From Amanita rubescens (taxonomy: Eukaryota > Basidiomycota > Agaricomycetes > Agaricales > Amanitaceae), in the NCBI GenBank assembly GCA_015039365.1, contig WION01000448.1, positions 1 to 43,124 of the forward strand: 43,124 nt of DNA, written 5' to 3'. The number at the start of each line of letters is the position of its first letter. Position 1 is the stretch's first letter. The position numbers were made by a program, and so were the translations under genes. Of this stretch, positions 5,201 to 42,431 are shown one piece after another. A model generated the notes under the pieces. It saw only the letters and a list, made by a program, of their open reading frames with translations, did no database searches and was not told where the DNA came from.

Positions 5201-8200
5201 TTCAATGATATTAGTACAAGGAATAACATTGAGTGTTTCATTCAACCATCCAGTTCTTTGCAAGATATCTCTGATTTCACCTGCTTCTTTTCGTCGATTC
5301 AATTCTGATTTGCATAGTTTTTGAATATCAGGTTCCTTAAATAGGTCTTCACTATTTGGATCAACATATGGATCATGATCACCAACCATTTCATTATCTA
5401 TTTCAATTCCATCAAAGCAATTGATAGGCCACTCATTAGAGGTGGTACCTGCTTTCATTTGAGCACGAAAATCATCACGAGCATCAAAGCATTCATACTT
5501 TATATTGAAATTTCTAATGAGTTGTTTCTCCCTTTTTGTGAACTCATGCTCATTAAATGTTTCATCCCATGACTTTTGCTCTATCTTTAGATGTAAGCCA
5601 GATCTCCAAGGTTTGAATAGTGCCAACATAGTAAGGCAGTAGAATTCTCTGTCACCCTGATCACATCTGGGAAGGATGCGTCCTATGAAATTAACAACAG
5701 CAGTGGGCTTCATGGGCCTGAGAAAGGCTATATGTGTTTCATAAAGGGGATGTTGTTTCTGAAACCTATACATATTTTTGGACACCTTATCTGCCATGAC
5801 ATCCTTCCCTAACATTACATTATCATTGTGATCCCCATCATCTACTTGCTCCTCATTTGTCATTTCAGGATCACTGTCACATGCTTCATCAGAACTGTTA
5901 TTGAGGCTGTCACCATTTTCCATTTCATTTTCATCAGTAGGGTCCATTTCATCTGTGGGCACAGTCTTAGAACTATCTTTTTGGTACTTTCTGCGCTCAC
6001 ACTGCAATACCCATTGATACAAGTTCATATGTTCAAGCTCTGATGGACGATAAATGTAGTCATATACAGGAGATATGCCAACAATTTTTTTCTTTGTCAG
6101 GACTAAAGTAACCTTTTCTGTGATTGTAGTAGAGTCAACCTTTTCCCATGCTTTTTGGGCCTCAAGCACAAAACTGTGCCAGTAAAATGGGACAAATGTG
6201 TGATTAGTGTAATGATCTGGATTGCCCAGAAGATACATGCAAACCATTGGTCCACCCATCTCTGTTTTTGTTGATAAAGTATTCACAATCTTATTGATGA
6301 GCTTCCTTGCTTTTTCTTTTTCAGACAGTGAGCTAGCTATTATGTCATGATGCTTGTCAAACACACTTCTCACTGCATCAAATATAACATGTGTCTTGAG
6401 ACCAGTCTTGGTAATGTAATCTGATACATATATAATAACAGCTTTCAAAGCAGTACCTGACCACAAGCAAGTCACATCTGTATTGCAGCGCATAACATAG
6501 GTAAGGATGGGGGTAAAGAAATTAATCCATGCTTCATGTTTCTTGATGTTTAATGCTCCTGTTTCAGGATCTACTTCTGTGCATTCAAAGATTGAACGTG
6601 GAAACCTTGCTTTGCATTTGCCAAATTTGTTGTCTTTGCATGATACATATCTCTTGCTTGCAGATCCATCTTTATTGGTACCTCTTTCACAATTATGTAT
6701 ATTAGATTTACTTACAAGATCATCAACCTCATTCTCAAAATAATTCCACCATTTGTTCATGTTGTCACATTTATTACAGGTTTCCTTCTGAGTATGCTTA
6801 GAGTCACACAGAGGGGGTGGTTGCTGTGGCAATCTTTCAGTGGGATCTTTGTATGATTCTTGCTTTGAGGATTCAGCGACACTGGCAAGAACTTCATCTT
6901 GCTTTCCTGTCATGAACTGTCCAATATGGCAACTTTCAAGCCAGTCTATTAAGCGTTTTTGCCAATTGGAGCTTTTATCCAAGATTCTTTCTCTCATTTC
7001 CTGTGGTGTCAGATTCCCAAGTAGCCATATAAGCATATGCAAATGTAGTGTCAATCTTCCTTGCTGTTCAACAGTACCATAGTAAGCTTTTGCAACTCCA
7101 TATAGACCTGCATCTTTTGCATCAATTCCTAAGATCTCAGAGATAAACAACTTGACCATGAAGTCAAAAAAGCGAGCACCTGCAACAGGATTCCTGCATA
7201 TTAACCTCATACGTTCATCATATGGTAATATTTCTACTGCAAATTTTTCATTCTTGTCAGCAAAGTATATACAAAGTGGATGCTTAACATCAGCAGGTGA
7301 GATTGTTATATACCAAAAAGGTGCACCTCTGTGATATATTAGAGACCAAATTTCATTTCTCATCCATTTTTTACTGGTATTTGAACCTTTCACTGGTCCA
7401 GCTACATAGTCAAGATCTCTGATTAGCTTGAAACATTTTTGTTCCTCTTCTGTTTCAGGCTTCACAAGTTCCTCTTTGCTCATCCGATCCACCAATGATT
7501 TCAAGACACTACTGTCAAGAGTCAGTATCCGCTGCTTGATATCATTAAATGCTTTTTTGTCAGCTAGTAAGTAACTTTGAGTTGATGCAGTTTTGATTTG
7601 CTCATGACTGAATGCTATGAAAGGAAAGTCTTGATCTGTTTGAAATCTTTTATCATGGTACATTAAAAGCCACTTCTTATGCTCTTTATCTGACAATCCT
7701 TTGATAGTTCCAACTCCACCAAAACCATATGGAAACAGCCAAGGAAACATTTGTGGATATAGCTGAGGATTATGCCAAATAGATTCAGGTTCAGCACTAT
7801 GCCCTATTGCTAAGAATTTCCCTTGCAAGTTCAAATGTTGTAATGCCTTCACCTTCACAGCATTAGTTGACATAATATTGAGCTCTTCACCTGTAAGACC
7901 ATGAACAGTGAAAGCACATTCTCCATCAGCAGTACCATCTTCTTCTTCCATATCATGCACACTAGTACCTTCAGGTGTTTTATTGTGCATCATTTGTTTA
8001 TATTCGATGCTTACAGGTGGCATATTCTCAGAATACTCATTAAGATTTTCCTCTGATATTGTGATATCTTCATAATCAGCATGATTTAAAATTAACCAGT
8101 TCAGAGCATTTTTCACATGATTGCGCCTCACAAGGAATGGAGTTCGCTTGAAATCACTTGGTGTGGGCTTGCAAGGACCAGTAAACATGATAGCAAGTAC

Positions 8201-10000: not shown

Positions 10001-10040
10001 GCAAATGGTGTCGTGGATCGCACTAACTATAATTGTAGCA
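9440..10040. repeat. Helitron 5' leader repeats
   Basis: Two repeat families lie upstream of the likely start. A 15-bp core CTCAAAAGAGGCATA recurs at 9452, 9521 and 9632 with related flanks. A longer unit of about 85-90 bp (about 9718-9806 and 9908-9993) begins GTAAGCAGAAA and ends with TGCCAATC. Both families happen to be open in the helicase frame, which extends it artificially. Their position suggests promoter or 5'-terminal function, but this is inference. Confidence 0.6.
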
Positions 10041-10507
10041 ATGCGAGAGCAAAGGCACCTTAGAACAAAGGGACATTGCGCATGGCGGAGCTGTCATGTG
10101 TCGCACATTCGAAATTCAATGACCATTAACGACAAATTGACTTACAAAGATATGAAGTAATAGCAACGCGAGAAATATAGCACACAGAGTGCTACAGCTT
10201 GACACCGAGCGCAGTAGGCATGACTCGGATGCATGCAGTGCCAGCGATGATACGGGTAACGGTTGAGCAAACATCGATGTAATCTATCGAAAAGTTCATT
10301 TAGAATACTAGAATGAAAAATCTTAAATAAGTAAAACTTACAGACGAGGCAGCGCAGTTCATAACTTCGAAGTGTAGGTGAACCGCGGCAAGTGTGCGAT
10401 GGTAGAGGAACAACAATCTTCTGATTACATAAAACGATAGTGCTTCCGCAAAAGCCCAAAGTAACACGATCAACAAAGCAATGCAAGGCTCTACAATAAC
10501 AAGCTAT
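10041..10507. other. Spacer, no gene recognised
   Basis: No supported gene lies here. The interval separates the 5' side of the Helitron from the stop codon of the TET-like gene. A short open minus frame exists (10142-10486), but it has no recognisable motif and no splice continuity. Confidence 0.4.
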
Positions 10508-24397: not shown

Positions 24398-26905
24398 CTA
24401 TCCCAACCTACCCACTTTACATTCTGTGATCTCCTCACTAACTGCTCTCTCGATATTCTCTACATCATCCAACACATCAGGCTCTATGCCATCATCATCA
24501 CCATTGTCCATCTCCAACTCTTCCTTATCAAGATTTTTTGTGAGTTCATTGTCCGATTCGGAGTCCATCACTTCATCTTCATCCTCGTTCACAGGCCCTT
24601 TCTTTTTCTTGGATTTCAACTTCAGCACATCAAATTGACGCAGGATAACCTGAACGACAAGGTGTACAATGTGGGCCATGCATCGCACACAGTTGGCAGG
24701 GCCTGGGAACTCGGAAAGGATGCCACCAAGGACAGCGACCATTGTATCGTTGTTACTCGCATTGTCACACATTATGCCCAAAATCTATCGATTCAGTGAG
24801 TCATGGGTCTATGTTTAATTGATGACGAATGCTTACTTTGTGGTCTATCCCATAATCCTTCACAACTTTTGCAAAAGCTTTGGCGAGATTGAGCCTGGTA
24901 TGTGATTTTGCAAGCTCCACGATGTCCAGCAATAGGCTAACTTGTGTTCTGTTATCTTCAAAATGGACTGTAAGCGCAATGAAAGCTCTATGATTTGGAG
25001 AAGTCCAGGCATCGGTCACAAAGCTCAAACGACCATCATATTCCTTCCGAAATTGGTGAGTACTACTGTTGCATGACCATGATGAGTAACAGAATACCTG
25101 TAGCATCTGCCCAAGTTGTTCCTTCACCCGACAAAACACTACATGGACATCTTGTGCAACCATCCTTGAGTGAGGAATACGATAACCTGGACATCCTGAT
25201 TTCATCACCCGATGAAATCCGTGGCTGTCAACTATGCTCATGCTGAGCATCTCCTCGGAAACCCACTTTACACACTCCATGCTGAGTGTGGCAGCATTAG
25301 TAAGCTTCGCATTTGAGTACTAATCAGGTGTCTCACTGTGTTTCCAGAAATGTGAGCTGACGTGTTGAGTAGGTCTCCTTACCGCTCCCTTTTCTTGCAA
25401 ATGCTGCTGTTATCAACCCATCCTGCAACTCTTTTCCACTCAAGACCGCTGTGCAAAGCTGATCCATATCAGGACCGTCTCTGCTTTTGGCCATATCATC
25501 TGCATCCTCCAACCATTGCTTACCCCAACATTTTGTAGCGTGTTTTCGCATGTTGCTTGTCGACTTCCTATCTTCGGTATCAAGAAAGTGCCGGACTATA
25601 CGTGGCCTAGAGCCTTTGCCCAGGCAGTGAGGTGCATTGCATTTAAACTCATGGCAGCAGCGGCTCAAAAAGGCATATCATATACCTGCCATCCAGTCCC
25701 TAGCCAGCCGCTCTGTGAGGTAAGCCTGGTTACTGGATGCAATCTACCATTCCAATACTGACTACTCACCTAGTTGCTCTTCGGGATCCGAGTCTTCATC
25801 CGGCTTCTCAATCACTTCAATCTTGCCCTCTTTGGAATCAGCATCACTGTCATGCAATGATTGCCTTTGGAGTGTGTGTCCATCATGCGATGACAGAGTC
25901 TGCGCCAATCACTTTTGGGCTGTAGTCTTTCCAAGTTAGGTTAAGTTAAGTCGTGCAGCCCTAATGGCCATGACCGTGACTGAACTGGTCGCAGAATTTC
26001 TTTAATTTGCCATGACCACAACTGCGACCGACATGACCAGTCATATTTGGTCGTGAGCTGGGGGTTAGCGGTCGTGACTGGTTACAACCGGTTATGTGCG
26101 ACCAGTCATGACTGGTTATGATGTGTCACTTCTGCCAATCCTGATGCTGTGATCAGCGGAGTATTTTCTACTTTTATTGTAGATTATCCTGATATGTCAC
26201 CATCCCAATATTCAAAAAAATAGGAAAATACTCTGCCCATCCCAATGGTGTGATGGGCAGAGTATTTTTCTATTTTTATTGTAGATTATCCTGATATGTC
26301 ACCATCCCAATATTCAAAAAATGGGAAAACACTCCACCCATCCCAATGGTGTGATTGGCAGAGTATTTTTCCACCTTTATTGTGGATTATCCCAATATGT
26401 CACTGTCCCAATGATAGGGTTATTACAATTATTCTAAGGGTTATTACACTATATTCTAAGGGTTACAGGCATTTGGTGGGGTGGATGTATCAAAGTCATC
26501 TGGACCTTGAAATGACCGGTTATGACTGGTCACGACCGGTCATAACCAGTCGTGGAGATAGACCAATTTTGTATGACCATGACCGCAACTTTGTTCAACA
26601 AAGTGTGACCGCAACTGCAGTTGTGCCATGACTGCAGTCATGGTCGGTCGTGTGACCAGTTGTGACTGGTCATGTGACCTAACTTAGAAAGACTATTGGG
26701 CTGGGTACACACCACGTGATTTTGTTGTTGTCGTTTTCTTTTTGGAGTGTTTTTTTGCATTGCGGGGTAAATCAGAATCATCATCATCAGGGTTGGGGGA
26801 GTCTGCATAGGGATTGGCACAGGTCGGCTCAACCCGCGCAGGTCATGTACCCACACCCATAGTGGGTACGGGTAGCACTCTGTAGACCCGTGGTTGAACC
26901 TGAAC
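24398..26905 (-). pseudogene. hAT transposase, 3'-truncated and interrupted
   Basis: The N-terminal acidic/basic part (NAKKHSKKK..., about 26705-26790) is split from the rest by the 773-bp insertion. After it come an acidic EDSDPEEQL exon (about 25770-25860), then a BED-type zinc finger (FKCNAPH...STSNMRKHATKCWG, about 25520-25660). A coding trace with VKWVSEEM (about 25150-25270) splices to EYDGRLSFVTDAWTSPNHRAF, the typical hAT catalytic entry. A further intron (about 24788-24838) leads to IMCDNASNNDTMV and CVRCMAHIVHLVVQ. The frame ends at 24398 after an acidic stretch, so the C-terminal hATC dimerisation domain is missing. At least one stop (near 25333) breaks the frame. hAT enzymes cut and paste DNA with 8-bp target duplications. 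Not functional as it stands. Confidence 0.7.
25923..26695. mobile_element. Non-autonomous TIR element (MITE-like), 773 bp
   Basis: The ends TAGTCTTTCCAAGTTAGGT and ACCTAACTTAGAAAGACTA are inverted repeats with one mismatch. They are flanked by a perfect 8-bp duplication TTGGGCTG at 25915-25922 and 26696-26703. An 8-bp duplication fits the hAT superfamily. Inside are three ~101-bp tandem units (GTATTTT starts at about 26161, 26262 and 26363), a 17-bp hairpin (26225-26241/26252-26268), a 16-bp palindrome (26101-26116) and many ACCGGT/ACCAGTC inverted motifs. There is no coding capacity. It sits in the hAT pseudogene coding region. Confidence 0.85.
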
Positions 26906-27439: not shown

Positions 27440-27514
27440 TGTTACAACACGGTACGGACTCCCGCATTATGCTTACATGATACGTCGGACATGTTTATTT
27501 TCTTTATGCATACC
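27440..27514 (+). repeat. 5' LTR of Gypsy, first part
   Basis: These 75 bp match the first 75 bp of the 3' LTR (from 41085). The LTR resumes at 33467 after the nested DNA element. Its last nine bases, ATGCATACC, are the duplicated target of that insertion. Confidence 0.95.
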
Positions 27515-27541
27515 TAGTCTCGTTCCCAGACGTTCTAGGGC
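27515..27541. repeat. Left terminal inverted repeat
   Basis: It begins TAGTCTCGTTCCCAGACG and pairs with the right end at 33431-33457, with about five mismatches over 27 bp and one length difference. Its inner part doubles as the left arm of the end hairpin. Confidence 0.85.
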
Positions 27542-27625
27542 AGCGGAGACAGCCGAGCGGAGCGTGAAGCGGGGGCAAATTTTTTGGCGCGACTTTTGAG
27601 CACGGCGCTGCCCTAGAACGTCTGG
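27526..27625. repeat. Left-end hairpin, 20-bp perfect stem
   Basis: CCAGACGTTCTAGGGCAGCG at 27526-27545 is perfectly complementary to 27606-27625, with a 60-nt GC-rich loop. The matching right-end structure suggests that both ends are recognised as folded or as paired binding sites. Confidence 0.9.
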
Positions 27626-27705
27626 TGCATTTCCCCTGGCAACACTGCGCTCGAGTCACGCTTGAGTCACCTTGCTTAGAAATTGTATTATATCATACGT
27701 ATCAC

Positions 27706-30459
27706 ATGACATTGTTTACCCCTAAACGCGTCGCGCGCTGGCTTCCTGCATCCCTGGATCCCTGGATCCCACGTATGTCACCGGCTCTAGAGCGTCACCG
27801 ACGTCATCAGAATCAAGCGCGAAATTCTGCGACAAACTTGGATCAGGCTCGGCAGCGGTCCGCCCAAGAAAATAGCTATTCTTCAACAGCTACACGCCGA
27901 AAGATCGAAGACGAGCTCTTCAATTGCACCAATGGATTAAAGGCTTATGAGTGGCAGGTAGACGTGGCTGAGGCCATTCTATTAGGCCTAGATTGTACTG
28001 TGATTGCGGGGACAGGGGCAGGAAAGACATTGCCATTCGTAATGCCCCTGTTCATTAAGCCCCAAAAGACAGTACTCATAATCTCGCCTCTGAATTCCCT
28101 GGAGGAGGATCAGGTAAGATATTTGAAGCACGTACTGCCAGTGCATTTAATCACAAACCGTTTGACAGGCTGCTCGCTTTCAAAAGATGGGGTTAACCGC
28201 TGTGGCTGTAAATGGTGAAACTTATTCATCTCAGCTTCATAAAGTGGGTCCCCCCCATACCTGATGAGCTTAAAATGACCATTGTTAGGATCTTGAAAGC
28301 GGAAAATATCAAGTAATACTCTCATCACCAGAGATGTGCTTGAAACATCCTGATTTCCGCCAATTGCTGAGTGTAGCCAAATTCTCACATGCAATGTGCT
28401 TAATTGTTGTCGATGAAGCACATTGTATTACACAGTGGGGACCCCAGTTCCGCCAGGAATATGCAGACCTAGGGGAAATCCGGGCATTTGCACCACAAGC
28501 TCCCGTTCTCTTAACATCTGCAACACTCACTCCATCATCACTAGATCATGCACGTAAAATCATGCTGGTAGACCCCTTATCCTCTTACCATGTCATGCTG
28601 GGTGTAGATAGACCCAATATTGCATGGTCAGTCAGGCATATGACACAAGGGAAAGACTTGGAAAGCTTAAAATTCATTATCCCTCCTCCTGACGTTGACA
28701 CAAACACGCCAGGACCATTCATTCCCACAATGATATTCTTTGATGACATTGCCTTGGCCATGTCAGCTATGGTCTATCTACGTCACCTGATGCCCCAAGC
28801 TCGTCACCAGGAAATCGCTGTATACCACTCACGCCGAACATCCCGAGCTAAAAAAATCGTCATGAAACAATTTCGCAACCAAGAGATCAAGATTCTACTC
28901 ACGACTGAAGCAGCCGGAATGGTACATCATTGTCTGGTGCATATTACGATTGTCTAACTAATGTTCTACGCTCAGGGATGTGATATATCACATGTTAAGC
29001 GGGTGATTCAATTCACTGTTCCAAAATCTCTGGATATTTGGTTACAGCGGGGTGGTCGAGCTGGTCATGATAGGACCATCCAGGCAGAGGCTATATTGCT
29101 CGTTCAGCCTTCAGTATTTCAGGAGATTTCAAGCAAAAAGGAAATTAGCTCACCAGAGATGGACGGTACTACTACAGACACTCCTCAATACCGGAAAGAG
29201 ATTCATGGTGGTCTGCGTCAATGGATCGAAGCAGCCGAATGTCGCCGCGATGTTGTTGATGAGTACTACGACTCCGGTGTGCCACGGTCGAGTAAGTTCG
29301 AATCGTCTATAACAAAGAAGACATCTACTTACACAGATAAGCGCCGCTCGGTATCTGTTGCGACAACTGTCAACGGAAGACCAATGAGACGACAATTGTG
29401 GATTTCTCGAACGTCGGCAATTTCGATGTGGTGAACTCAAAGGCCTGCTCGACGGCAGGACCTTCGAACGTCATAGAAAACGTCTCTATGGATGGACTAG
29501 GTGACACCACAGCAGATCAGCTTGAGGAATCAGACAAAGATATAGGAGACGATGTCACCTCCGATACAGGTATACCCAGGCCCTCAACCAAGCGTCGCGA
29601 TCCCTCTATTCTTCCCCAAAGGCGGCGAGGCGCACATCTGGCTGATGCCCAACGGTCGCTTGAGCGGTGGCGAGTAGAGACGTGGACAAATCTCTACAGT
29701 CAATGCCCGTGGAGTCCCGAAGTAATCCTGCCATCCCGAGTTATTTCCAATCTTGCGCAAAAGACATACATTCTGTCTGTTGATAATTTGGTCGAAATTG
29801 GAGGTTTGTCACGGCACCGTGCTCTTCGTCATGGCGAACAGATACTGTCTATCCTACACAAAGTTGACGAACGTGAGCGTAGTCGACGCTCGTCTGAAAA
29901 ACAAAAGAAATTGGACGAACGTTTGGAGCGTCAACGTATCGCAGCAGTCGCTAGGGAGGCGAAGAAAGTAGAGGCGAAGAGGCGAAGGGAAGAGGAACGG
30001 TCGAGAAGGCCTAAGAAACCGCGACTCTCACGAGCAAAGAAGCATGTCGCGCCAGCACACGTGGCCGCGGAGATGGGGGCTCAAGGTAAGGAAAACGTAC
30101 CCCTATCTCCGCCATCTGTATTACATCCGACGGGCTCGTGGTTTCCCATGGCTCCGTTCACCCCACCACGGTTCACGACGTCTGCGCCTTACTATTCGCC
30201 CTCATCGACGCCTTTCACGCCACTTACGGCTAGCCTCTGTGCACCGCCTTTCACGCCTCCCACGGCTAGCCCTACGACGTCTGCGCCTCACTATTCCACG
30301 GCTAGCCCTCCGCCTCTATCGTCTGCTCGCTTATGGGCATCACCCTATTATCTCGCGCCCTATCAAAATCCGATGCAACCTGCACCGCCCGTCCAGCCAC
30401 ATCCTACGTTTTCCCAGTACGACTTCAACGCGATGGGACCATTTCAGAACCCCAAATAA
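27706..30459 (+). CDS. RecQ-like DEAH helicase with basic, proline-rich C-terminal tail
   Basis: Exons end at 28113, then 28169-28243, 28289-28921, 28976-29291 and 29342-30459; introns are 45-55 nt. Possible starts are ATG 27706 or 27775 (826 residues from the latter, used below). Motifs: GTGAGKT Walker A (79-85), DEAH plus the RecQ-specific ITQWGPQF loop (180-193), LLTSAT (motif III) and QRGGRAG (motif VI, 373-379). A zinc-binding region has a cysteine at about 438 and CCDNC at 460-464. The enzyme should unwind DNA 3'-5'. The ~360-residue tail has an arginine/glutamate coiled coil (ERQRIAAVAREAKKVEAKRR) and FTPPTAS-type proline/threonine repeats, but no typical RecQ HRDC domain. It lies inside the transposon and ends facing the DUF6589 gene. 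All exons stay in frame, so it looks intact. Confidence 0.88.
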
Positions 30460-30588
30460 CTTTATACAAGAATACCGTGCTAGTGTACCTTGAAGTGAGT
30501 ATATTTTTATTCAATATAAGTTATACTTGACCAATTTCGAATGATAGAATATTTGTATTTACGCGATGAAATGCAATACCATTATATC
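30460..30588. terminator. Convergent 3' region of helicase and DUF6589 genes
   Basis: The 129 bp between the two stop codons is AT-rich with ATATAAGTTATAC and AATACCATTATATC segments. Both transcripts must end here or overlap. No canonical AATAAA is present on the plus strand. Confidence 0.4.
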
Positions 30589-33205
30589 TCAACCATCCCA
30601 TGTCTCCTTGGTCGAGCGCTCGAAGTGACGAGCTTTCCACCACTTGTTGACAGTATCTCCATTTTCTAAGGCATCAACACCGGAGGTGATATAATCTGCA
30701 ACACGTATACTGCCGTCCTTTGGTTTGCGCCCGGGCTGGTCCGAATACAGTTTGGCCAATCCATAATGGTCTGTCAATGTTTTGACATCTAAATCCTTAC
30801 TGACGTCACCGTGCTTTGACCCTCGAGTGATTGTTTCAAACTGTTGCTCGAAATGCCGCTGAACGGCACGTAAAGTTGGAATAGCGGGCGAGATGGTCTG
30901 AAGATAATTCCAAGTGGCTCCGGGTCCAAATGACCTGTAAGTGACTTTGATATCTTTAATATTGTGCTCTTGAGCTTGGTCAACGGCTAGAAATGTATTT
31001 CGTCGACCTTCTCTATTGACAACCCAGCAGTGGTCCCGCACGTAGTCCCGCACCTCCGGAGGCCATTCGCAATGCAATCCTTGGAGCATTTCAAGAAGTT
31101 CGACGGTGTACTTAAAGTTCCCGCCACCTGCAAAACGGAACAGGATCACGGGTATCAAGTCTTCCATTCGGCCCACATCCCCTTCCTTTATGGCTGCAGT
31201 CAACTCCAGGTATGGCAATATGTCTTTATTCCACATAATACTGTTTTCTTGAACTAGATCCGGTTTGTCGGAAGGCATTCGTTCTTGAAGTTCAACTAAT
31301 GCAGCCATTGATGCGTAACGGTCAAGAATCTGACCGGCATATGCATGCAGTTCTTCTGGTCTCTTTTTTACCAGATCATCCAATGTTTTTGCGCCTGTAA
31401 GTTGACACCAACTCGTGCGAAAATGTGCTTCGCTAATATGACGAAGGGCTTCGTCTAGGTCGTTCCAAAATGGACCCTTGCTTGCGGGTGACATCTTCTT
31501 TTTATGTAACAGGTCAAATGCATGGCGCAGCAGTCCAACGGAGTTCGATGTCCCGTAATATTGCTTGTATAATGATAACGCAAATGCCATCACCAGGTGG
31601 AACCATCCTGGAGACAATACGAGGTAGTCCATGCGATCAAACGAATTAAAGTCCTCGTGGCGATATTTATACAAGCCCCGAAGACGATCCATCGTCAATT
31701 GATCACCACAACAAACTAAGACTCGGTCAAGCCCGGTTTGTTTTTGTTCTACTTCCGAATCAAGTTGTAATTGACGGAACCATTCAGCAACGACCTTATC
31801 GTTTCCGTCATAACTGGCCTCCTCAATAGGTGCGGTTTCTAGCATGTATTGAATGTTCCTAGCATTTTCACCAACAGGGAGCTCGTGGACAGGAGCAGGA
31901 GGGGCGAGACATTCATGGTTCCGGTGAGTGGCAGGGTATGCTCGGAATTCCGGTGAATTTAGAAGCACTGACAATATATGATAGATATACGAGGCTCTCA
32001 GACGCTTCGCAGCTGCTGGAATGCCATCGATTAGAGGTGTTATATCGAACATGGTAGCAGCGCGACGGGTTTCTTGTAGAGCACGGTTTATCCGTGGAAC
32101 GAGTGCCTTTTCAATAGGTAATGTCCACACCGTACCAGCACATCCACTTTGAAAATGACTCTGGTTGTGTAGACGTTGAGAAAACACCCGAAGCGGAACA
32201 TTTACATTGTCGTATGACACAAAGAAAGGTTGGGATTTGACCATTTGACGGACCTCGTCCATAGCCTTCTTGGAAAGTGTCCGGAAAGCCTCGGCCGTCC
32301 ATTTATGACTCATGGTGAGTCCGAGCGAGTGGATGGCGTCGAAAGCACGAGCTGACATTCCACATGCTTTTAAATATATTGCCCAGGCTTTCGCCAACCT
32401 GCTGCGTCGGAAAGACCGTGTATACTGACACTGGGATATCATGGAAAGAACTATCTGAAGAGTCCAAAGTTAATTTTCTGCTATATTTTAAAATCGGAAG
32501 ACTGACCATATCGGGATTTTTATGAGTGTTATGTTTTTCCTGCTCAACGGTATATGCAGCTTTCCGAAACAAACTCCATGTTATTGGCGCTAGTGTCCGG
32601 CACTCCGCCATTATGACGTTAAAGTTAAGATTTAGTAGATGCTCCTTCGAAAGGAGCTCGGAATTTGAAAGGAAAGACTTTGCTGTGAGTTTCATTTCAC
32701 GATCCATTTGCTTGTTGACTATTTTTTGTGCAAAGTTGACGAGAACTTTCTTGGCAGCCAATGGCCGTTGCCCCCGGTAACCTTGACCTCGGCTGGGGGC
32801 TTGATACCATCGCTCCAACAGTATAGGCAGCTCATCGCTAACCATAAGGGCGGTCCGCTGGTATTGTATAGCTGCATCATTATGACATGCGGCATCTCCA
32901 TAAAAAACGGCATCCAAGAACAACGGTAAGTTCAGCCCCTCGGATTGCATGCAGTTGAAGATTCTCTTTACTTTCGACAGAATATCTGCCGCATCCAGCC
33001 TAGCTTTGAGATGCATCGTGTTCTGGTAAGCAATTGGTGCGTCCGCAGGTGTTTCTTCCTCTTCTAACATCGGCTCATCCAATTCTTCGGGCTCGTCATA
33101 AGTGAAGTCTACAAGTTCATCAATGTCGAACAAGTCTTCCTCGTCTTCTTCAAGCACAACTATATCCGAGGGAGCTTCTTCTTCCCCTTCAAGATTTGGA
33201 TCCAT
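30589..33205 (-). CDS. DUF6589 protein, candidate DDE transposase
   Basis: Exons 33205-32507 and 32454-30589 join in phase over a 52-nt intron, giving 854 residues with no stop. The N-terminus (~1-60) is strongly acidic. The rest fits the DUF6589 family of Agaricomycetes: SQCQYTRSFRRSRLAKAWAI after the junction, then three spaced acidic sites, SYDN (D315), CCGDQLT (D484) and AVDQAQEHN (E729). An aspartate at the end of a hydrophobic strand, a second in GDQ(L)T, and a late glutamate in a helix is the pattern of RNase H-fold DDE enzymes with a long insertion between D and E. The gene fills the right half of a TIR element with a clean target duplication, so it is the best candidate for the transposase. 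DUF6589 is recognised; the catalytic role is inference. Confidence 0.8.
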
Positions 33206-33350
33206 TGTTTATTACCATCTAGCTAGATACATAGTATACGAATTGCAACGACGCATAATGGTTTAGGAGGTGTTTGCTATATTGAGAATAGCCGGAGACA
33301 TCACGTGAATGTGACCGTAACATCAAGCGCAGTATTTGGGGGGAATTGCA

Positions 33351-33446
33351 CCAGATGTTCTAGGGAGGAGCCTGGCGCGAAACTTTCCCCAAAGTTTTCG
33401 CCTCCGCTTCAGGCTCCGCCCGGGTACCGGCCCGTAGAAAATCTGG
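33351..33446. repeat. Right-end hairpin
   Basis: CCAGATGTTCTAGGG at 33351-33365 pairs with 33431-33446 (one bulge, one mismatch). A second inner stem GGAGCCTG/CAGGCTCC lies at about 33367-33374/33410-33417. It mirrors the left-end hairpin and shares its CCAGA(C/T)GTTCTAGGG arm. Confidence 0.8.
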
Positions 33447-33457
33447 GTACGAGATTA
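33431..33457. repeat. Right terminal inverted repeat
   Basis: The element ends ...ATCTGGGTACGAGATTA, the imperfect complement of the left end. It is followed directly by the duplicated ATGCATACC at 33458-33466. Confidence 0.85.
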
Positions 33458-33466
33458 ATGCATACC

Positions 33467-33843
33467 TTACTCGTCGCTCCCCTTATGCTCGATTCATACG
33501 GACTAACTCGTTTACTTGTTTATACCATCCCTTGTTCCACATATGACGCCGTCCTTATACTTACTTCTGTACTTACCATTGTTCATTAATTAGTACGTCT
33601 CTTTGTACTTGCTAGTATAAATACCGCATGTATTCTAGAGTCGAACCCTAAGTTCGACTTAGCTGTTTATTGTCGTCTGGCAATATAACCTTACTCTTAA
33701 CTCATTTACCACAATCGTCCTCAGATCCTAAGTCAACATCTTGACTTAGTATTGAACTTATAATCTTAACGTTTGACTTAAGACTTGTAATCGTGACTAG
33801 AGTTGCCGTTGCAACTTAGGTTGAGATTAACGAGTTCGTAACA
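33467..33843 (+). repeat. 5' LTR of Gypsy, second part
   Basis: These 377 bp continue the LTR from 27514. A TATAAATA box is at 33616-33623. Three tight hairpins follow it: 33639-33646/33652-33659 (8 bp), 33728-33736/33741-33749 (9 bp) and 33801-33806/33811-33816 (6 bp, CGTT loop). They lie in what should be the transcribed R/U5 part. The LTR ends GTAACA at 33843. Confidence 0.93.
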
Positions 33844-33934
33844 ATTAAGTCGAACTTATCAATAAGCCTGAACATCGATTCATTGGCATTTGATAACATA
33901 CACTTCGACGAACTTCCGGAAAGCCAGCCCGTAG

Positions 33935-35677
33935 GTTACTGGCCACGTTGTCAAAACGGATTGGAGAGCTCCACCAAATAGAGCTACACGAGATCGTAAA
34001 GGGAACTACGTTCTTGACGGATACTACGTCAGACTAAACGGTGCAAAACAAATCTGGGAAGATTTAGGAGGAAATCCAGTTAAAGAACAAGAATTCTGGA
34101 TACCACAAAAAGAAACTAGACCTCCGAACGAATCATACTATTATTTCGCAGATCTATATCTTCAGGAACAGCACATCAGATTCGATCACCTCACAGAACG
34201 TTGGATAGCATCCGAAACACAAGACTTCGTCCCTAACGAATACTTCAACACCCCTACTTGGATAAAAGGGACTGTTGACGCTCTACCAGAGAACTTAAGA
34301 CCAAGAACTCTCCTTTCCACATCAACAACTACAAAAGGCAAAAAGAAAGCAAACTTTGGCCTAAACGATAGTGAATCCGAGAAAGAAGGAGATACAGATC
34401 AAGAACCCGATCTATCCCTTGATTTTCTCAGTGACCTTTCAGTTGGAACGACACCAACACCTGCCCAACAACCGACCAATCCCGAATCAGGTCCTTCGAA
34501 CCTTAAAAAAGAAAAGGACAACAAAGACCCGTTTGACTCTGACAGAATCGAAGTAGACGAACCTAAACCCGACCCAACTCCACCACGCAGAGATCCATCA
34601 CCCCCACCATCACCAAGAATGTCTGGAGGAAGTACAGACCCTATACCCAACCCACGAACCCCTAGTCTCATCGGAGATCTTCCTGAATTCAAAGGGAAGC
34701 GAAAGGATGCCAATACATTCATAGAAGACATTGAAATTTTCTTTGACATGAATCCTGAGCGGATGAATACCGACCGCTTAAAAATCCTTGCCGCCCTGAA
34801 TAAGATCTCAGATGGAGCTAGACAGTGGAAAAAGAATAAATTAGCAGAACTACGAAAATCTCGCGCCACCACTGAAGGAGGCATCACGAGACCTGCTTTA
34901 TTTGACGATTGGGAAGCATTTAAACTGTCATTCTTGACAGATTGGGGAGAAGTTGATCCAAGTGGAAACGCATACACGAAAATTCTCAATCTACAGAACA
35001 GATCGTCTATGAAAGGAAAGAAACAGATGACCCTACCTAATTACGTAAATCAGTTCAAGGAACAAATCACAAAAGCCGGAATCGAAGGAGAAGCAGCATT
35101 CCATATGTTCGGAAAAGGACTTACAGCACCAGAGTTCGAAAAAGCAATGCTCATGAACCCAAAAACGTTACAAGACTGGTACGACATTGCTATCAAACTC
35201 GACAATATCCGAACCCGTTCATATGCCTATTCACCTCGATCTGGAAACGGTCATTCATCATCCTCCCACAACGACGAATCTTGGGCAATGCAGATTGATC
35301 ACAAATATCTAGAAAAAGATGAAGATCCAGAATTGGAACTTATGATCAGATCTATGACCAAAGAAGAAAGAGAACGCTATATTAGAGACGGGTTATGTTT
35401 CATCTGCGGAATCAAAGGACACATGTCAGGGCAATGCCCAAAGAAGAAAAGAAACAAAGGGAAAGGCCGATTTAAAGGAGGAAAGAAGAGAGGATTCACG
35501 CCCAAACGTCACATTCGAGCCACATCAGATGATGGTGATGGAAATTGGGAAGAAGAAGAAGTCCGAGAGTCTAAACCAAATTACACCAAGAACATCCGAG
35601 CGCTGATGAAAGGGATGTCAATCGACGAAAAGAATGATCTACTACTATCTCTTGCCGAAGATAACGAGGATTTTTAA
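33935..35677 (+). CDS. Gypsy Gag
   Basis: The frame is open from 33935 (after a TAG at 33932-33934), but the first ATG is at 34619, giving 352 residues. The upstream open part reads as real protein (DRKGNYVLDGYYVRLNGAK, then EFWIPQKE and an acidic/proline-rich stretch), so translation may begin earlier through a non-AUG codon, a short intron, or a lost frame link at 33920-33935. The core has a retrotransposon capsid block (IGDLPEFKGKRKDANTFIEDI ... ALFDDWEAFKLSF) and a CCHC zinc knuckle CFICGIKGHMSGQC near 35395-35440, followed by a lysine-rich tail. It packages element RNA into particles. It ends GAT TTT TAA at 35669-35677, where pol begins in the -1 frame. Confidence 0.85.
   Translation, partial: VTGHVVKTDWRAPPNRATRDRKGNYVLDGYYVRLNGAKQIWEDLGGNPVKEQEFWIPQKETRPPNESYYYFADLYLQEQHIRFDHLTERWIASETQDFVPNEYFNTPTWIKGTVDALPENLRPRTLLSTSTTTKGKKKANFGLNDSESEKEGDTDQEPDLSLDFLSDLSVGTTPTPAQQPTNPESGPSNLKKEKDNKDPFDSDRIEVDEPKPDPTPPRRDPSPPPSPRMSGGSTDPIPNPRTPSLIGDLPEFKGKRKDANTFIEDIEIFFDMNPERMNTDRLKILAALNKISDGARQWKKNKLAELRKSRATTEGGITRPALFDDWEAFKLSFLTDWGEVDPSGNAYTKILNLQNRSSMKGKKQMTLPNYVNQFKEQITKAGIEGEAAFHMFGKGLTAPEFEKAMLMNPKTLQDWYDIAIKLDNIRTRSYAYSPRSGNGHSSSSHNDESWAMQIDHKYLEKDEDPELELMIRSMTKEERERYIRDGLCFICGIKGHMSGQCPKKKRNKGKGRFKGGKKRGFTPKRHIRATSDDGDGNWEEEEVRESKPNYTKNIRALMKGMSIDEKNDLLLSLAEDNEDF
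35671..35677 (+). promoter_or_regulatory. Candidate -1 frameshift site at gag stop
   Basis: Gag ends GAT TTT TAA with five consecutive T residues (35671-35675). A peptidyl-tRNA on TTT can slip back one base onto another TTT, and the next codon is then TTA in the pol frame, which is open from just before this point. It is not a textbook X XXY YYZ heptamer, but slippage directly at a stop codon is plausible. Confidence 0.45.
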
Positions 35678-35679
35678 CA

Positions 35680-38600
35680 GTGGGACTCATAACAGTGGAT
35701 GAAGTTCCAGAAACATCAGATCCAACTCTCGATATATCTTATGTAACAGTACAATCTATTTCAAAACGAAGATTATCTGTCCCTATCAAAGTTGAAACTG
35801 AAAACGACACTGAAAACCTCATTGCCCTTATCGACTGCGGAGCCGAAGGGATATTCATCGACAAAAAGATAGCACACAAATGGAGAAAACGAAAAACTCC
35901 ACGACCAATCAGAGTCTACAACGTTGATGGCACCATAAACAAAGAAGGAGAAATTGATGAACAATGTCTAATCACCTTCGAAATGAACGGAAAACGCATG
36001 ACCGAATGGTTTTACGTATCAGCAATAGGAAAACAAACGATTATACTGGGGCTTCCTTGGCTAGAGAAGCATAACCCTGATGTAAACTGGAGAGAAAAGA
36101 CTCTAGAGTTCCGAAACTCTGAACAGGACAAGATCAAGGCATCACTTCGGAGCATCTGTCAACAGATTGACAGAATAGCTATGCCTGAATGGGAAGAAGA
36201 TCTCGTCATCGGATATTTGATGTCACACAAAGGATCACAGACGACAGATCACGGATGGAACGCGCATACATTTGAGGATATAGGAAGCTGGTCAGAAGAT
36301 GAATACGACCAAGTAACTATCGCACGATATACACCAGCTCAACAAATGGAACACAAATACCATCAAACAGAGGAGGTTTACACGCTCCCTCCTGAATACT
36401 CGGCATGGAAAGATGTATTTGAGAAAAAAGCAAGTGAACGATTCCCAGAAAGCCGATCTTGGGATCACCAGATAGAACTTCGCGATGATTTCATACCAAA
36501 AAGAGGAAAAATCTATCCCTTATCTCCGAAACAGCAGAACACACTGGATGAATGGATCAAAGAACACGTCGAAAAAGGCTACATCAGACCATCGAAATCA
36601 CCGCAGGCATCACCTTTCTTCTTCGTAGAAAAGAAAGAAGCACAAAAATTACGACCCTGCCAAGATTATCGATATTTGAACGAATATACTAAACCAAACG
36701 CATATCCGCTACCTCTTATCTCCGATCTTATGATCAAACTCAAAGATTCGGAATACTTTACGAAATTGGATATCCGATGGGGATATAATAACGTTCAAAT
36801 CAAGGAATCTGACAGATGGAAAGCCGCCTTTATCACCAATCGAGGTTTATTTGAACCTAACGTCATGTTTTTTGGATTACGAAATTCACCAGCAACGTTT
36901 CAAGCTATGATGGACGATTATTTCAGGGATTTTACAGAAAAAGGATGGCTCGTCATCTACATGGATGACATGCTAATACACGCGCGCACTAAAGAAGAAC
37001 TCGAGACTCGAACAAAACAAGTACTTGAACGATTACAGAAACACGATCTTTACCTCAAGCTTGAAAAGTGTAAATTCGCTGCCAAAGAAGTTGATTTTCT
37101 AGGCACCGTCATATCCAAAAACACAATAAAAATGGACCCGATCAAACTTGCCGGAATCAGGGACTGGCCAACCCCTTCTACCGTTAAACAAGTTAGATCC
37201 TTTTTAGGATTCGGAAATTACTATCGAAGGTTTATTTTTGGATTTGCCCACCTTGCACGACCCCTGCACGACCTAACGAAGAAAAACAAATTATGGACAT
37301 GGACCGCAGAATGCCAAGTCGCATTTGATCTATTAAAAGAACGCTTCACATCCGCACCTGTCTTAATGATGCCCGATGTCAACAAACCTTTTATTCTACA
37401 AACGGATGCATCAGACCGCGCTATCGGAGCAGTTCTCATGCAGAAAGATGACAATGGCGACTTACACCCATGTGGATACCTATCCCACGCCTTAACACCG
37501 ACTGAAACACGATGGCAAATCTACGACCGAGAATTATTCGCCATTTACTACGCTCTTTACAATGAATGGAGATACCTACTTGAAGGAGCAGAACACCCTG
37601 TCATTATTCATTGCGACCACAAGAATTTACTCTACTATTGAGAACCACAACGTCTTACGAACCGCCAAGCACGATGGTGGAACGACTTGTCTCGATTTAA
37701 TATTAAATTAACCCACGTCCCTGGAGCAAAACTAATAATAGCGGATACCCTATCCCGCCGACCCGATCATATGACAAAAGACGAACCAGAAGAGTTAATA
37801 ACGATGCTCCCAAAAGAACTCTTTGTTCGCACAATCGCCAAAGATCTCCGTGACAGAGCAATAGAAATAACTGTCAAAGACGAATTTGCTCAATCAATCA
37901 AGAAATGTCTAAAAGAAAAAGGAACACCACCTTTACACACTGCCCTTTCTGATTGGACCCTTGACGATGAATTAATCCTGTACAAAGGGAAATCCTTTAT
38001 TCCCCCTGACGCCGATCTTCGCCGAGATATTATTAGAGATTTTCATGAATCACCAACAAGCGGACACCCCGGTTTCTTCAAAACACTCGCCTTATTAAAG
38101 GAATATTACTGGTGGCCATTGATGTCTAAAATGGTTAAACAGTTCATTGATGGATGCACGGCATGTCAACAAATGAAATCAAATACACATCCTACTGCTG
38201 CACCTCTAATGCCAATCAAGTCTCATGCTCACCGACCCTTTCAACAAATAACTATGGATTTCATAACCAATTTACCCACAAGTAACGGCTTTGATTCTAT
38301 CTTTATCGTGGTCGATCAAGGACTTACAAAGGGAGTAATTCTCATGCCTTGTAATAAAACTATCACCGCTGACGAAACCGCCGACCTCTACATTCGGAAT
38401 GTATTCAAAAACTTCGGTTTACCCGACATCATGATCTCCGATCGAGGACCACAGTTCGCATCACATGTCTTTAACGGCATAATGGACTCATTAAAGATCA
38501 AACACAAAATGAGTACCGCCTTCCATCCACAGACTGATGGACAAACGGAGCGATATAACGCCGAATTAGAAGCTTATCTTCGGATATTCTGTGCCTATGA

Positions 38601-39285
38601 ACCAGATACTTGGAACAAGATGATACCAATAGCACAATTCGCGCATAATTCACGCACTCATGAAGCATTGAAACAATCGCCCTTTCAATTGATGTATGGA
38701 ACATCCCCGGTTGCACTTCCCCTTGTCTCAAAAAAGACAAATACACCAACCGCCGATAACCGCATCAACTCCTTGTTCCGCGCACGAGAAGAAGCACTCG
38801 CCGCACATGATCTAGCCCGAGCTAAGATGATGGAGAGAACAACGAGAAAGACTAAACCGTTCAAAGTCAATGACAAAGTATGGTTAGAGTCTAGGAACCT
38901 GAAGATTCCTTATCAGAGCAGAAAGCTCGCACCTAAACGAGAAGGTCCCTTTTCCATTAAAGAAGTCTTAGGACCAGTGACATATCGTCTCACGCTACCA
39001 AGACAATGGAAAATTCATAACGTATTCCACGCTGCCTTACTAACGCCGTTCAAAGAAACTTCCTTTCATGGAACAACGGAAACAAGGCCCCCTCCCGATC
39101 TGATCGAAGGAGAACAAGAATACGAAGTAGAAGCACTGCTTGCACATCGCAAGTTTAGAGGAAAATTACAATTTCTTGTAAAGTGGAAAGGCTATGATAC
39201 CAGCGAAAACACATGGGAACCAGAAAATAACTTGACGCATATGGAAGACCTCCTTCTAGAATATAAAAGACGAAGGAAACTCTGA
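35680..39285 (+). pseudogene. Gypsy Pol: protease, RT, RNase H, integrase, chromodomain; one internal stop
   Basis: A single frame runs 35680-39285 except for TGA at 37639-37641. Domains in order: aspartic protease with LIDCGAEG (Cys in place of the usual Thr/Ser; ~residue 52), reverse transcriptase with YMDD (about 36958-36970), RNase H (LQTDASDRAIGAV, DRELFAIYY, HCDHKN), integrase HHCC finger (HESPTSGHPG...CTACQQMK), and catalytic D (38257), D (38440) and E (38548), the last two separated by 35 residues. A chromodomain (LQFLVKWKGYDTSENTWEPE) closes the protein at about 39118-39282 and would target histone-marked chromatin. The stop lies between NLLYY and EPQRLTNRQARWW, where relatives normally read on; CGA to TGA is the likely change. 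No frameshift is seen. Unless read through, the element cannot make integrase. Confidence 0.9.
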
Positions 39286-39286
39286 G

Positions 39287-41044
39287 ATGTCATTCACATA
39301 CCAAGTTACTATGCAGAATGGAAACGACACCACCGACGCCGTTCAGCACTTCCCCTGGTCCGAATTTTATGCTGGAGAGACCATCAACACTCGATTCACC
39401 ACCTCCGCTGGGCCCCACCGACCTCGACTTGTTCTTCATACCACCAACACCGACGAAGAAGACGCTGACCCGAACGACTTCGTTGATGTTCCCCACGGAC
39501 CTCCCGATCAAACCCCGTCTCAGACGATCCCGATCACTCCCACCGAAACCCAGGAAACCCACCACAGAACATCAGAAACTCTGGCTGTACCTGGACGAAT
39601 TACGGAAGATCGCAATAGCCGACCAATCCCACCTAGAAACGCTGAAGACATTAGCGTTACCATACATAGAGAGACGGCACTTACCGGTCACGCTTCGACT
39701 CAATCTCATAACGAACCTATTCGAGGCAATGACCAGAGTCACGGTACAGATGGGACTAACCGCGATATGGCTGGCCCCATCATACGAACCACCCCCGATC
39801 TCTATCTCAGTTATCACGGAATTACTACTTACACCAAGGTTAGAGACCGCGTCACTCTGATCTGTAACGCCGCTAGATTACAGGTCGACATCTTTGACCA
39901 AGAAAGGATAGCTCGAGTCTGGCGACTCCTCATGGATTTCCGAACCGCCACTACCCTTGCCGGTCAAGCCCGAGATCAATACAACTATCACTGTGCCGAT
40001 TTAATCGAAACGTTTGTGAACATTACGTCATTATACTGGGAAGACGTTCATCCGAAAGGAGGAAATCTAGATCAACTGGCGATAGATCTATTACGACGCC
40101 TTCTCACAGCTGACGTCGAGCGCTATATCATCCTTGCTATAGAAAGCATCGACGATCAAAGGTTTGGACTAAAGATACAGTCTCACGATCAGAATAACCA
40201 CATCGCTGTCAACCATTGGTTTCGCGCTACCGAAGCTACACCCGACCGACACCGAGCAACTAGATGCATTATGGAGACAGATCGTAAATCGAGAGAAATC
40301 TGGTGCCTCACCGGAAAAATCCGAGATCTCTTATCCAGTATCCAAGGAGACACGGAATGGACCACAGCCGAATTCGCAGATGGAGTTCCCTTGCATCAAC
40401 TCACTAGCGACCACATTGCGCAGATCAATAATGCGATCAGCGATCTCGATCTTCATCGCCGAATCCGTACAACAGGCGATCTCATTGAGGAAGAACCGAA
40501 ACGAGATAAGAAGACTCCTTCTCCTCCTCGATCCGCATCACCCCCAACCACCACCGTTATTTGCCACGGAGTCTGGAATATTCCTGTCCCCACTACTCGA
40601 CGAAACGACACTCCGCCTTCTCGACGACCTACGACCTGCAGTATGACTAATGCCGCCAATCAACGCCCCCATCGTTACAACCGCTGCATTCACTGCCGAG
40701 GTAAACATGCCTCTGAGGATCACCATCTCGCTACTACAATTCCTCCTGTGTCTACTCTATCTACACGCGCTCCCACGCGCCGACGCGATCCGACGCCCGG
40801 TCCTTCCACTAAGAAGAAAGGACGTTCTCGAACTACCACAGATACCGCCAATACCCCCGCTTCCACTAGCCGCCGCCCTCATCAGCCGAAGAAGAAGGGA
40901 AAGAAGAAGGCACACCACGCGTCACAGTGTCAGGCATGCGTCAATGGACGACAGTGCGACGGAGCTGATGACGATGCCTGCAACTTTTACGGTGACTACG
41001 GCTATCAGCACGACGACGTCGCCATGCACAACATGAATACTTGA
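39287..41044 (+). CDS. Extra 3' frame of the Gypsy element (ORF3)
   Basis: A 585-codon frame starting one base after the pol stop (TGAGATG), so it could be reached by termination-reinitiation. It begins with a short conserved-looking module (TYQVTMQNGN...HFPWSEFY), passes through a charged low-complexity part, then a helical region (about 39830-40450: RVWRLLMDFRTATTLAGQA, LDQLAIDLLRRLLTADVER), and ends in a proline/arginine/lysine-rich tail with cysteine clusters (CIHCRGKH, CQACVNGRQC). No enzyme motif is visible. Similar accessory frames follow the chromodomain in some basidiomycete Gypsy elements, as I recall. A nucleic-acid-binding or structural role is possible. The frame overlaps another open frame at 39318-39860. 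Confidence 0.65.
   Translation: MSFTYQVTMQNGNDTTDAVQHFPWSEFYAGETINTRFTTSAGPHRPRLVLHTTNTDEEDADPNDFVDVPHGPPDQTPSQTIPITPTETQETHHRTSETLAVPGRITEDRNSRPIPPRNAEDISVTIHRETALTGHASTQSHNEPIRGNDQSHGTDGTNRDMAGPIIRTTPDLYLSYHGITTYTKVRDRVTLICNAARLQVDIFDQERIARVWRLLMDFRTATTLAGQARDQYNYHCADLIETFVNITSLYWEDVHPKGGNLDQLAIDLLRRLLTADVERYIILAIESIDDQRFGLKIQSHDQNNHIAVNHWFRATEATPDRHRATRCIMETDRKSREIWCLTGKIRDLLSSIQGDTEWTTAEFADGVPLHQLTSDHIAQINNAISDLDLHRRIRTTGDLIEEEPKRDKKTPSPPRSASPPTTTVICHGVWNIPVPTTRRNDTPPSRRPTTCSMTNAANQRPHRYNRCIHCRGKHASEDHHLATTIPPVSTLSTRAPTRRRDPTPGPSTKKKGRSRTTTDTANTPASTSRRPHQPKKKGKKKAHHASQCQACVNGRQCDGADDDACNFYGDYGYQHDDVAMHNMNT
39318..39860 (+). CDS. Overlapping frame inside ORF3
   Basis: A 180-codon frame, offset by one base from ORF3. 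It has a proline-rich start (LDSPPPLGPTDLDLFF) and a helical end (LWLYLDELRKIAIADQSHL, YIERRHLPVTLRLNLITNLF), and it looks at least as protein-like as the ORF3 frame beneath it, which is polar and low-complexity in the same span. Either the element uses both frames, or ORF3 carries two compensating indels and this is its true middle. Not resolvable from one copy. Confidence 0.4.
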   Translation: METTPPTPFSTSPGPNFMLERPSTLDSPPPLGPTDLDLFFIPPTPTKKTLTRTTSLMFPTDLPIKPRLRRSRSLPPKPRKPTTEHQKLWLYLDELRKIAIADQSHLETLKTLALPYIERRHLPVTLRLNLITNLFEAMTRVTVQMGLTAIWLAPSYEPPPISISVITELLLTPRLETASL

Positions 41045-41070
41045 ATGTTTTGTTGTTGCAGTCAACAACA

Positions 41071-41084
41071 TAGGGGAGAGCTAG
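41071..41084 (+). promoter_or_regulatory. Polypurine tract of Gypsy
   Basis: TAGGGGAGAGCTAG lies immediately upstream of the TG of the 3' LTR at 41085. A purine-rich run in this place primes plus-strand DNA synthesis in LTR retrotransposons. Confidence 0.65.
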
Positions 41085-41536
41085 TGTTACAACACGGTAC
41101 GGACTCCCGCATTATGCTTACATGATACGTCGGACATGTTTATTTTCTTTATGCATACCTTACTCGTCGCTCCCCTTATGCTCGATTCATACGGACTAAC
41201 TCGTTTACTTGTTTATACCATCCCTTGTTCCACATATGACGCCGTCCTTATACTTACTTCTGTACTTACCATTGTTCATTAATTAGTACGTCTCTTTGTA
41301 CTTGCTAGTATAAATACCACATGTATTCTAGAGTCGAACCCTAAGTTCGACTTAGCTGTTTATTGTCGTCTGGCAATATAACCTTACTCTTAACTCATTT
41401 ACCACAATCGTCCTCAGATCCTAAGTCAACATCTTGACTTAGTATTGAACTTATAATCTTAACGTTTGACTTAAGACTTGTAAACGTGACTAGAGTTGCC
41501 GTTGCAACTTAGGTTGAGATTAACGAGTTCGTAACA
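41085..41536 (+). repeat. 3' LTR of Gypsy
   Basis: An intact 452-bp LTR, TGTTAC...GTAACA, with TATAAATA at 41309-41316. It contains the uninterrupted ATGCATACC target sequence and so acts as the empty-site reference for the nested transposon. The flanking AATCC is at 41537-41541. Confidence 0.95.
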
Positions 41537-42431
41537 AATCCAACAGCCAGAATGGGATCTTTCCACCACTTCCTTGTCACACCATCTGCAGACAATTTTT
41601 GGCCATGGCTGAACTTGGGGAGCAGCTGCATTTATTGGCTCATTGCGGACAACAGCTATGGTCAGGTGACTTGGTTGTGGTCTCATTATGCTTTATACCT
41701 GTTTGGCAACAGACTTGGCTGAATCCTTGGCCTCCGAATCCATGCACACTCAATGGTATGCTGCCCTTGTGGGTACAACCCGTGCGGGTACAGGTACAGG
41801 TAGGAGGTTGGGTCCGGGTCCAGGTCAAGTTATCTTGTACCCGCATCCAAACCCATACCCTGGCTACGGGTCCGGGTATGTCACGGGGTCTGGGTCTGGG
41901 TATGCACCTGGATACCCAAGGGTATACCCAAGCCAATCCCTAAGTCTGCATGGCCATCCAAGTCATCTTCATGGTGTGTACCCCCATCTTCATTTTGTTC
42001 GTCAGAGTATGACTGATTTTCTGATTCAATAGTCTTTCATAGGCATTTTACTGTGTCTGCCTTATTGGCAGAGCCATTGTCCTCATTTGTAGCATAAGAG
42101 GAAATCTTGCGCTTGCATCGTTCAGTGAGAATAAGGGATGGATCAACTTCATCGTGTGCCATGACAGCACCAGGGAGACTCAACACACAGAGTGGACAAT
42201 ATTTTTATTATCTACATACACGACTTGGTACTGCACAGTTGTGACCACGGGCGCTGGCACCCATAACATGCCACCCTAATCCCAATTGCAGCATACCCGC
42301 CCATACGGGTATGGGTTTCTGTGGGTGTGGGTAAGGGGTATATGCGGGTACTGAGCTTGTGACCCTGACCTGTACCCAACATACCCATATTACTTTACCC
42401 AACGGGTATGCCATACCCATGTCAAACACTA
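41537..42431 (-). pseudogene. 5' end of the interrupted hAT element
   Basis: Directly beyond the Gypsy the minus strand reads WPKIVCRWCDKEVVERSHSGC (about 41545-41615), a zinc-finger-like exon that continues, across the Gypsy target site, into 27439-27418 and then a splice donor. Further out are clusters of GGGTAC/GTACCC and CCCATAC motifs (41760-41940, 42290-42420), similar to the cluster at 26820-26960. The block ends, on the minus strand, with TAGTGTTTGACATGGGTATG (ending at about 42431), which resembles a hAT terminus. The partner terminus was not found near 24.4 kb, consistent with truncation there. Confidence 0.5.

Follow-up and report, generated by a model that had tools for sequence, protein, structure and literature searches.

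AcademH is reportedly a helicase-encoding lineage of the Academ superfamily of DNA transposons (Kojima 2020, Mob DNA 11:15). The nuclease of AcademX, to which it is compared below, is XPG. AcademH makes target-site duplications of 9 or 10 bp and AcademX those of 3 or 4 bp, and this difference is tied to the helicase of the one versus the nuclease of the other (PMC10045372). AcademH occurs in Basidiomycota, Ascomycota and Mucoromycota according to a fungal survey (PMC10799480), and a mushroom genome paper, which cites the AcademH paper, reports putative non-autonomous Academ elements (PMC8290104). KolobokH is a fungal DNA transposon encoding a RecQ helicase. Here we describe a DNA transposon of 5,943 bp with imperfect terminal inverted repeats (27515-33457) in a 43,124-bp stretch of Amanita rubescens DNA (the window; contig WION01000448.1, which is contig 383, or C383, of a 75.7-Mb assembly, other C numbers likewise denoting its contigs). 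We read it as a two-gene element that makes a 9-bp duplication and encodes a predicted DDE transposase, DUF6589, together with a RecQ-like helicase, likely of the AcademH lineage, and give this reading a probability of about 0.83.

Boundaries and genes of the element

The element sits inside the 5' long terminal repeat (LTR) of a Gypsy retrotransposon (27440-41537, forward strand, outer LTR limits as aligned), which was identified by its LTR pair and its reverse transcriptase, integrase and chromodomain. A 9-bp target-site duplication, ATGCATACC, flanks the element on both sides (27506-27514 and 33458-33466, forward strand), and the same 9 bp are present as a single copy at the unoccupied site in the other, uninterrupted LTR (41151-41159, forward strand). 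When the element was excised in silico, 453 bases of the 5' and 3' LTRs could be paired; they differ at 2 of these positions and by a single 9-bp gap, which is the duplicated ATGCATACC itself. The same limits were obtained from the ends: a scan reaching up to 4 kb outward from the two genes, for inverted ends with an 8-10-bp duplication, found one pair only. The left terminal inverted repeat on the helicase side (TAGTCTCGTTCCCAG..., 27515-27541, forward strand) and the right one on the DUF6589 side (TAATCTCGTACCCAG..., 33431-33457, reverse strand) agree at 18/22 of their first bases and at 21/27 positions in an ungapped comparison. The element, its duplication within the Gypsy LTR and the empty site in the other LTR had been proposed in an earlier reading of the letters alone (the sequence-only reading), and all the coordinates proved exact.

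Two genes are carried. The helicase gene (27775-30459, forward strand) encodes 826 amino acids in five predicted exons (27775-28113, 28169-28243, 28289-28921, 28976-29291 and 29342-30459) separated by four short GT-AG introns, and the DUF6589 gene (33205-30589, reverse strand) encodes 854 amino acids in two predicted exons (33205-32507 and 32454-30589) with one 52-bp intron. The introns were assigned by inspection, guided by GT-AG signals and by homology with the RecQ motifs, the splicing being predicted; once they are assumed, both frames are open from ATG to stop. The stop codons lie at 30457-30459 (forward strand) and 30589-30591 (reverse strand), and the genes are therefore arranged tail to tail. 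The RecQ-like DEAH helicase matches Pfam DEAD (E 6.3e-23) and Helicase_C (E 3e-15), with an HRDC match below the cut-off, and its best match to RecQ and WRN structure chains has an E of 1e-39; the other protein matches Pfam DUF6589 with an E of 4.4e-125. The intact convergent pair and both gene identities given in the sequence-only reading were thus supported.

Judged from the sequences, both proteins are conserved between two families, represented by the window copy and a diverged member on C373 (74 percent over query bases 1-584, duplication GTGTACCGA). In DUF6589 exon 2, 485/620 positions are identical, with a nonsynonymous divergence (dN) of 0.135 and a synonymous divergence (dS) of about 2.5. 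The helicase shows 169/211 identical positions in exon 3 (dN 0.119, dS saturated) and 83/105 in exon 4 (dN 0.146, dS 1.6), and its tail, exon 5, is looser (163/314, dN 0.41). Both proteins are thus kept, which fits both being in use.

The predicted transposase and its family

The transposases of hAT (Hermes) and the P element have an RNase H core with a large helical insertion, and the order of strands and helices in the DUF6589 model fits such a core and insertion. The predicted fold is nearest to DDE transposases, namely Hermes, which is the nearest of all, the P element, ISCth4, RAG1 and Transib, with identities of 6-10 percent to the nearest solved folds. The DN, GDQ and glutamate positions are nearly invariant across DUF6589 proteins. 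The candidate first catalytic aspartate, in the DN motif, lies at 32209-32211 on the reverse strand (D82 of the exon-2 protein; D330 in P0002 numbering, 55/57), and the candidate second one, in the GDQ motif, at 31702-31704 on the same strand (D251; D499 in P0002 numbering, 57/57). Either of two glutamates at 31090-31101 (reverse strand), E452 or E455 of the exon-2 protein (in P0002 numbering E701, 57/58, and E704, 56/58), is a candidate for the third catalytic acid. This model predicts that DUF6589 is a DDE transposase with an RNase H fold.

Of the 63 proteins listed by a profile search aimed at remote homologues, 61 carry DUF6589, and by name no Academ protein was found among the 63 or among the DUF6589 matches. 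When PDB sequences were searched with this profile, the two rows obtained were beta-glucosidases at E 1.2 and not meaningful, and nothing in a viral structure library matched below 0.001. When 59 DUF6589 proteins were scanned, no second transposase family was present among the 25 Pfam families listed out of 29. The hAT family is not among the Pfam matches listed for DUF6589, although Hermes is nearest by fold. DUF6589 is unmentioned in the 5.39 million papers searched, subscription papers and transposon databases lying outside that search, and a connection between the family and a transposase may not have been published before.

The element is likely to belong to the AcademH lineage, because it fits the features stated for that lineage. 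Its helicase is RecQ-like, with DEAD and Helicase_C domains and matches to RecQ and WRN chains; its duplication is 9 bp long at 6/7 insertions; a DDD/E transposase is present by prediction, from the fold and the conserved D, D and E; and its host, Amanita rubescens, is a basidiomycete, with relatives of the element in other mushrooms. In the comparison with published descriptions of AcademH, which covered helicase, duplication length and host range, no feature was shown to differ. The sequence-only reading knew of no named superfamily with this gene pair, which is probably wrong, since AcademH likewise combines a helicase within a DNA transposon, 9-10-bp duplications and fungal hosts that include Basidiomycota. 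If the element is Academ, its transposase and that of AcademX would be of one superfamily, but AcademX differs by its 3 or 4-bp duplications and by a nuclease in place of a helicase.

It is unlikely that the element represents a DNA transposon superfamily separate from Academ, with DUF6589 as its transposase, a different transposase in AcademH and a helicase acquired independently. Homology of DUF6589 to the Academ transposase is putative, the nearest solved folds are those of hAT and the P element, and the literature searched is silent on DUF6589. Helicases have also been recruited more than once: KolobokH of fungi carries a RecQ, and a Kolobok of a red alga carries one on the opposite strand. 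Against such a separation, AcademH likewise has a helicase, a 9 or 10-bp duplication and a fungal host range. It is also doubtful whether DUF6589-helicase elements form a mushroom-wide DDE superfamily of their own, in which a RecQ-like helicase would be the fixed partner of a hAT/P/RAG-like transposase and would set the 9-bp stagger, which is unusually long, and in which paired inverted CCAG boxes would provide a hairpin-forming stretch 11 bases from the tips. The likeness to hAT (Hermes) and the P element lies in the fold; hAT elements usually make 8-bp duplications, with 5, 6 and 7-bp variants known, versus the 9 bp found here, and the identity is only 6-10 percent. The hAT and P element transposases are not known to have a helicase partner.

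Membership of KolobokH or of the KDZ group (Kyakuja, Dileera, Zisupton) is very unlikely. KolobokH resembles the element as a fungal DNA transposon with a RecQ helicase, and KDZ elements are prominent in the genome of Marasmius oreades. However, Kolobok duplicates TTAA, Zisupton makes 8-bp duplications, and the two characterised Kyakuja families make 7-bp duplications and are without inverted repeats. In contrast, the six duplications found for this element are 9 bp long and of varied sequence, with inverted ends, and both identities were rejected on these grounds. A Helitron was also considered. Helitrons share with the element that a helicase is carried; they use an HUH/Y1 transposase and single-stranded transposition, and they are not known to make target-site duplications. 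This identity was rejected, as no Helitron domain was found by Pfam in the element's two proteins.

Copies, ends and gene pairing in the genome

The C46 copy is identical to the window copy (5,943/5,943), with the same duplication and an identical right flank (1,400/1,400), and is therefore the same insertion seen twice, as an allele or a duplicate. A further insertion, with the duplication CTTTTTTCT, is common to C97 and C141. The C97 copy, from which 334 bp of the DUF6589 gene are missing, has 2 differences from the window copy in 5,609 bases, and the C141 copy has additional 1-2-base gaps. The left flanks agree at 764/1,500 positions between C46 and the window and at 924/1,500 between C97 and C141 in ungapped comparison, which we take as small shifts, because C46 and the window have a rounded identity of 100 percent over 501 bases of the window's left flank, and for the 200 bases next to the insertion the identity is 100 percent with C97 and 99 percent with C141. 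Among shorter relatives, one of 128 bp on C355 is flanked by the duplication GGATCTTGG and one of 188 bp on C114 has no duplication. A second end type, CAGACTCCTACCCAGTC, is present in a 2,531-bp element on C25 (duplication ACGCCATCG) and in an element on C651 (duplication AACAACGTC). A 9-bp duplication, varied in sequence, was thus found in 6/7 distinct insertions for which both ends and both flanks were available, a count that omits the one-ended loci (C71, C501/C13, C212, C365, C770/C195/C179, C5, C3, C257, C760, C321, C385, C693 and C331). Only single end motifs were found at the helicase loci C331:1455661 and C693:93039 and at the C385 locus. Termini were also sought at C585, C451, C289 and C168, where palindromic and nested repeats were not readable as one element; these DUF6589 loci lie within nested inverted repeats of about 380 bp (TGTTGAATATTGAGTG...), which the end motif does not explain.

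The joined C373 flanks match C775:18982-19381 over 400/400 bases (100 percent). On each of the two contigs, the same relative of this flank (76 percent) is found at a distance of about 10 kb, which fits two alleles, so that the C373 copy appears to be both present and absent within one assembly. The best uninterrupted sites for the C97 insertion are on C108 and C607 (97 and 96 percent identical), which could be alleles or related loci, since more distant relatives of the flank (85-88 percent) exist. The empty sites fit either precise excision or a state that was never occupied. The element is real, well delimited and recently mobile. Its shared ends, the 9-bp duplications elsewhere, the empty site and the co-location given below bear out the earlier proposal that the gene pair moves as one unit.

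In the genome, the end motif CAGACTCCTWCCCAGTC occurs 173 times versus 0 for the reversed control, and the motif YARWCTCSTWCCCAG occurs 250 times versus 23 for the reversed pattern. Shared ends and 9-bp duplications in other copies, which the sequence-only reading had proposed to look for, are both present. Within the first 100 of the 173 places, 33 neighbouring CAGACTCCTWCCCAGTC pairs less than 10 kb apart face inward and 1 does not; five of the inward pairs enclose both genes, six the helicase only, and 13 fall into a class 810-828 bp apart. This class, with CAGACTCC ends (contigs 10, 13, 72, 79, 105, 124, 175, 182, 197, 223, 235, 278 and 285), is probably a non-autonomous family.

Both ends of the window copy contain a subterminal inverted pair. 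On the helicase side, a hairpin-capable pair (27526-27625, forward strand) begins 11 bases from the tip and is perfect over 20 bp (27526-27545 and 27606-27625); its equivalent at the other end (33351-33446, reverse strand) is 15 bp long with 2 mismatches. If single-stranded, each end would fold into a hairpin from which the 11 outermost bases protrude unpaired (z -4.6 and -3.9, respectively). The best inner inverted box starts at position 12 (CCAG...) in 15/16 ends examined, and the inner boxes beat all 100 shuffles at 10/16 ends, related ends being counted separately and kinship between copies ignored, as in every count given here. In the proposed mechanism, DUF6589 would bind the element ends, the inverted CCAG boxes that lie 11 bases in from either tip being the probable binding sites, and would cut and join with its predicted DN/GDQ/E active site at target positions staggered by 9 bp. 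The helicase may act in excision or repair, where it would open or remodel the long staggered gap or the element ends. Short copies, which share these ends but have no transposase gene, would depend on transposase supplied in trans.

That another transposase moves these ends, with DUF6589 as the cargo of a non-autonomous passenger, seems highly improbable. The transposase activity of DUF6589 is a prediction from a model, and there are short copies without DUF6589, of which one is flanked by a 9-bp duplication. However, the element's two proteins contain no other transposase domain by Pfam, and DUF6589 combines a DDE-transposase-like predicted fold with conserved acids and constraint (dN 0.135, dS about 2.5).

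The proximity of DUF6589 to a RecQ-like helicase, another check suggested earlier, was examined at 27 DUF6589 loci merged from 45 matches in this genome. A helicase match lies within 6 kb at 25/27 loci, 22 of them convergent, whereas random placement at a more lenient limit of 8 kb gave a mean of 0.28 and a maximum of 4 in 20,000 draws. The effective number of loci is smaller, because repeated copies of the same regions are among the 27: C46/C383 and C97/C141 are one insertion each, and C135/C189, C321/C605, C585/C451/C289 and C760/C236/C385 are apparent repeated regions, judged by coordinates and scores. The three non-convergent loci (C236, C385 and C760) look like repeats of one arrangement and may be two adjacent elements, because the end motif lies between both genes. 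DUF6589 is absent from 24/49 helicase loci, and host RecQ genes may account for some of these. In other mushrooms, at least 17/61 named DUF6589-bearing contigs (14 species) equal a helicase-bearing contig in length and species name, with 120 of 1,008 helicase rows listed and rows lacking an organism name omitted. One shared contig has only 5,312 bases (Agrocybe pediades); most are long, and on these sharing means the same contig, not adjacency.

That two unrelated orphan genes were caught by chance between repeats is barely conceivable, and although transposons are nested in this region and both gene families are multicopy, the idea is contradicted by co-location at 25/27 loci versus a random mean of 0.28, by the same ends and 9-bp duplications elsewhere and by shared contigs (equal length and species) in 14 other species; the sequence-only reading would have accepted it had there been no other copies or had the genes never co-occurred, and clearly copies exist and the genes co-locate.

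Neighbouring features and meaning

The region consists of nested transposons, with the element within Gypsy and a Helitron in the same window. An uninterrupted frame of 2,604 amino acids (2279-10093, reverse strand) with DUF6570, Helitron_like_N and PIF1 is the Helitron Rep-helicase. The polyprotein frame of the host Gypsy (35665-39285, forward strand) is broken by a stop codon (37639-37641) that separates reverse transcriptase/RNase H from integrase, and a 594-amino-acid open frame without a Pfam match (39260-41044, forward strand) lies downstream of it. A 101-bp unit repeated 2.8 times (26131-26412) lies upstream of the Gypsy retrotransposon, at a distance of about 1 kb.

The element is probably a further member of the known AcademH kind, and the useful part is the assignment of DUF6589. 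This family, annotated as unknown, gains a probable function as a DDE transposase, and many mushroom genes annotated as hypothetical gain a probable mobile origin. Helicase domains are the most common transposon-derived domains in a fungal survey (PMC10799480), and the element also bears on helicase-domain genes. A single genome holds copies that are nearly identical, shortened forms and an empty allele, which makes the element well suited to studies of why some transposons include a helicase and of whether target duplication length depends on the partner enzyme.
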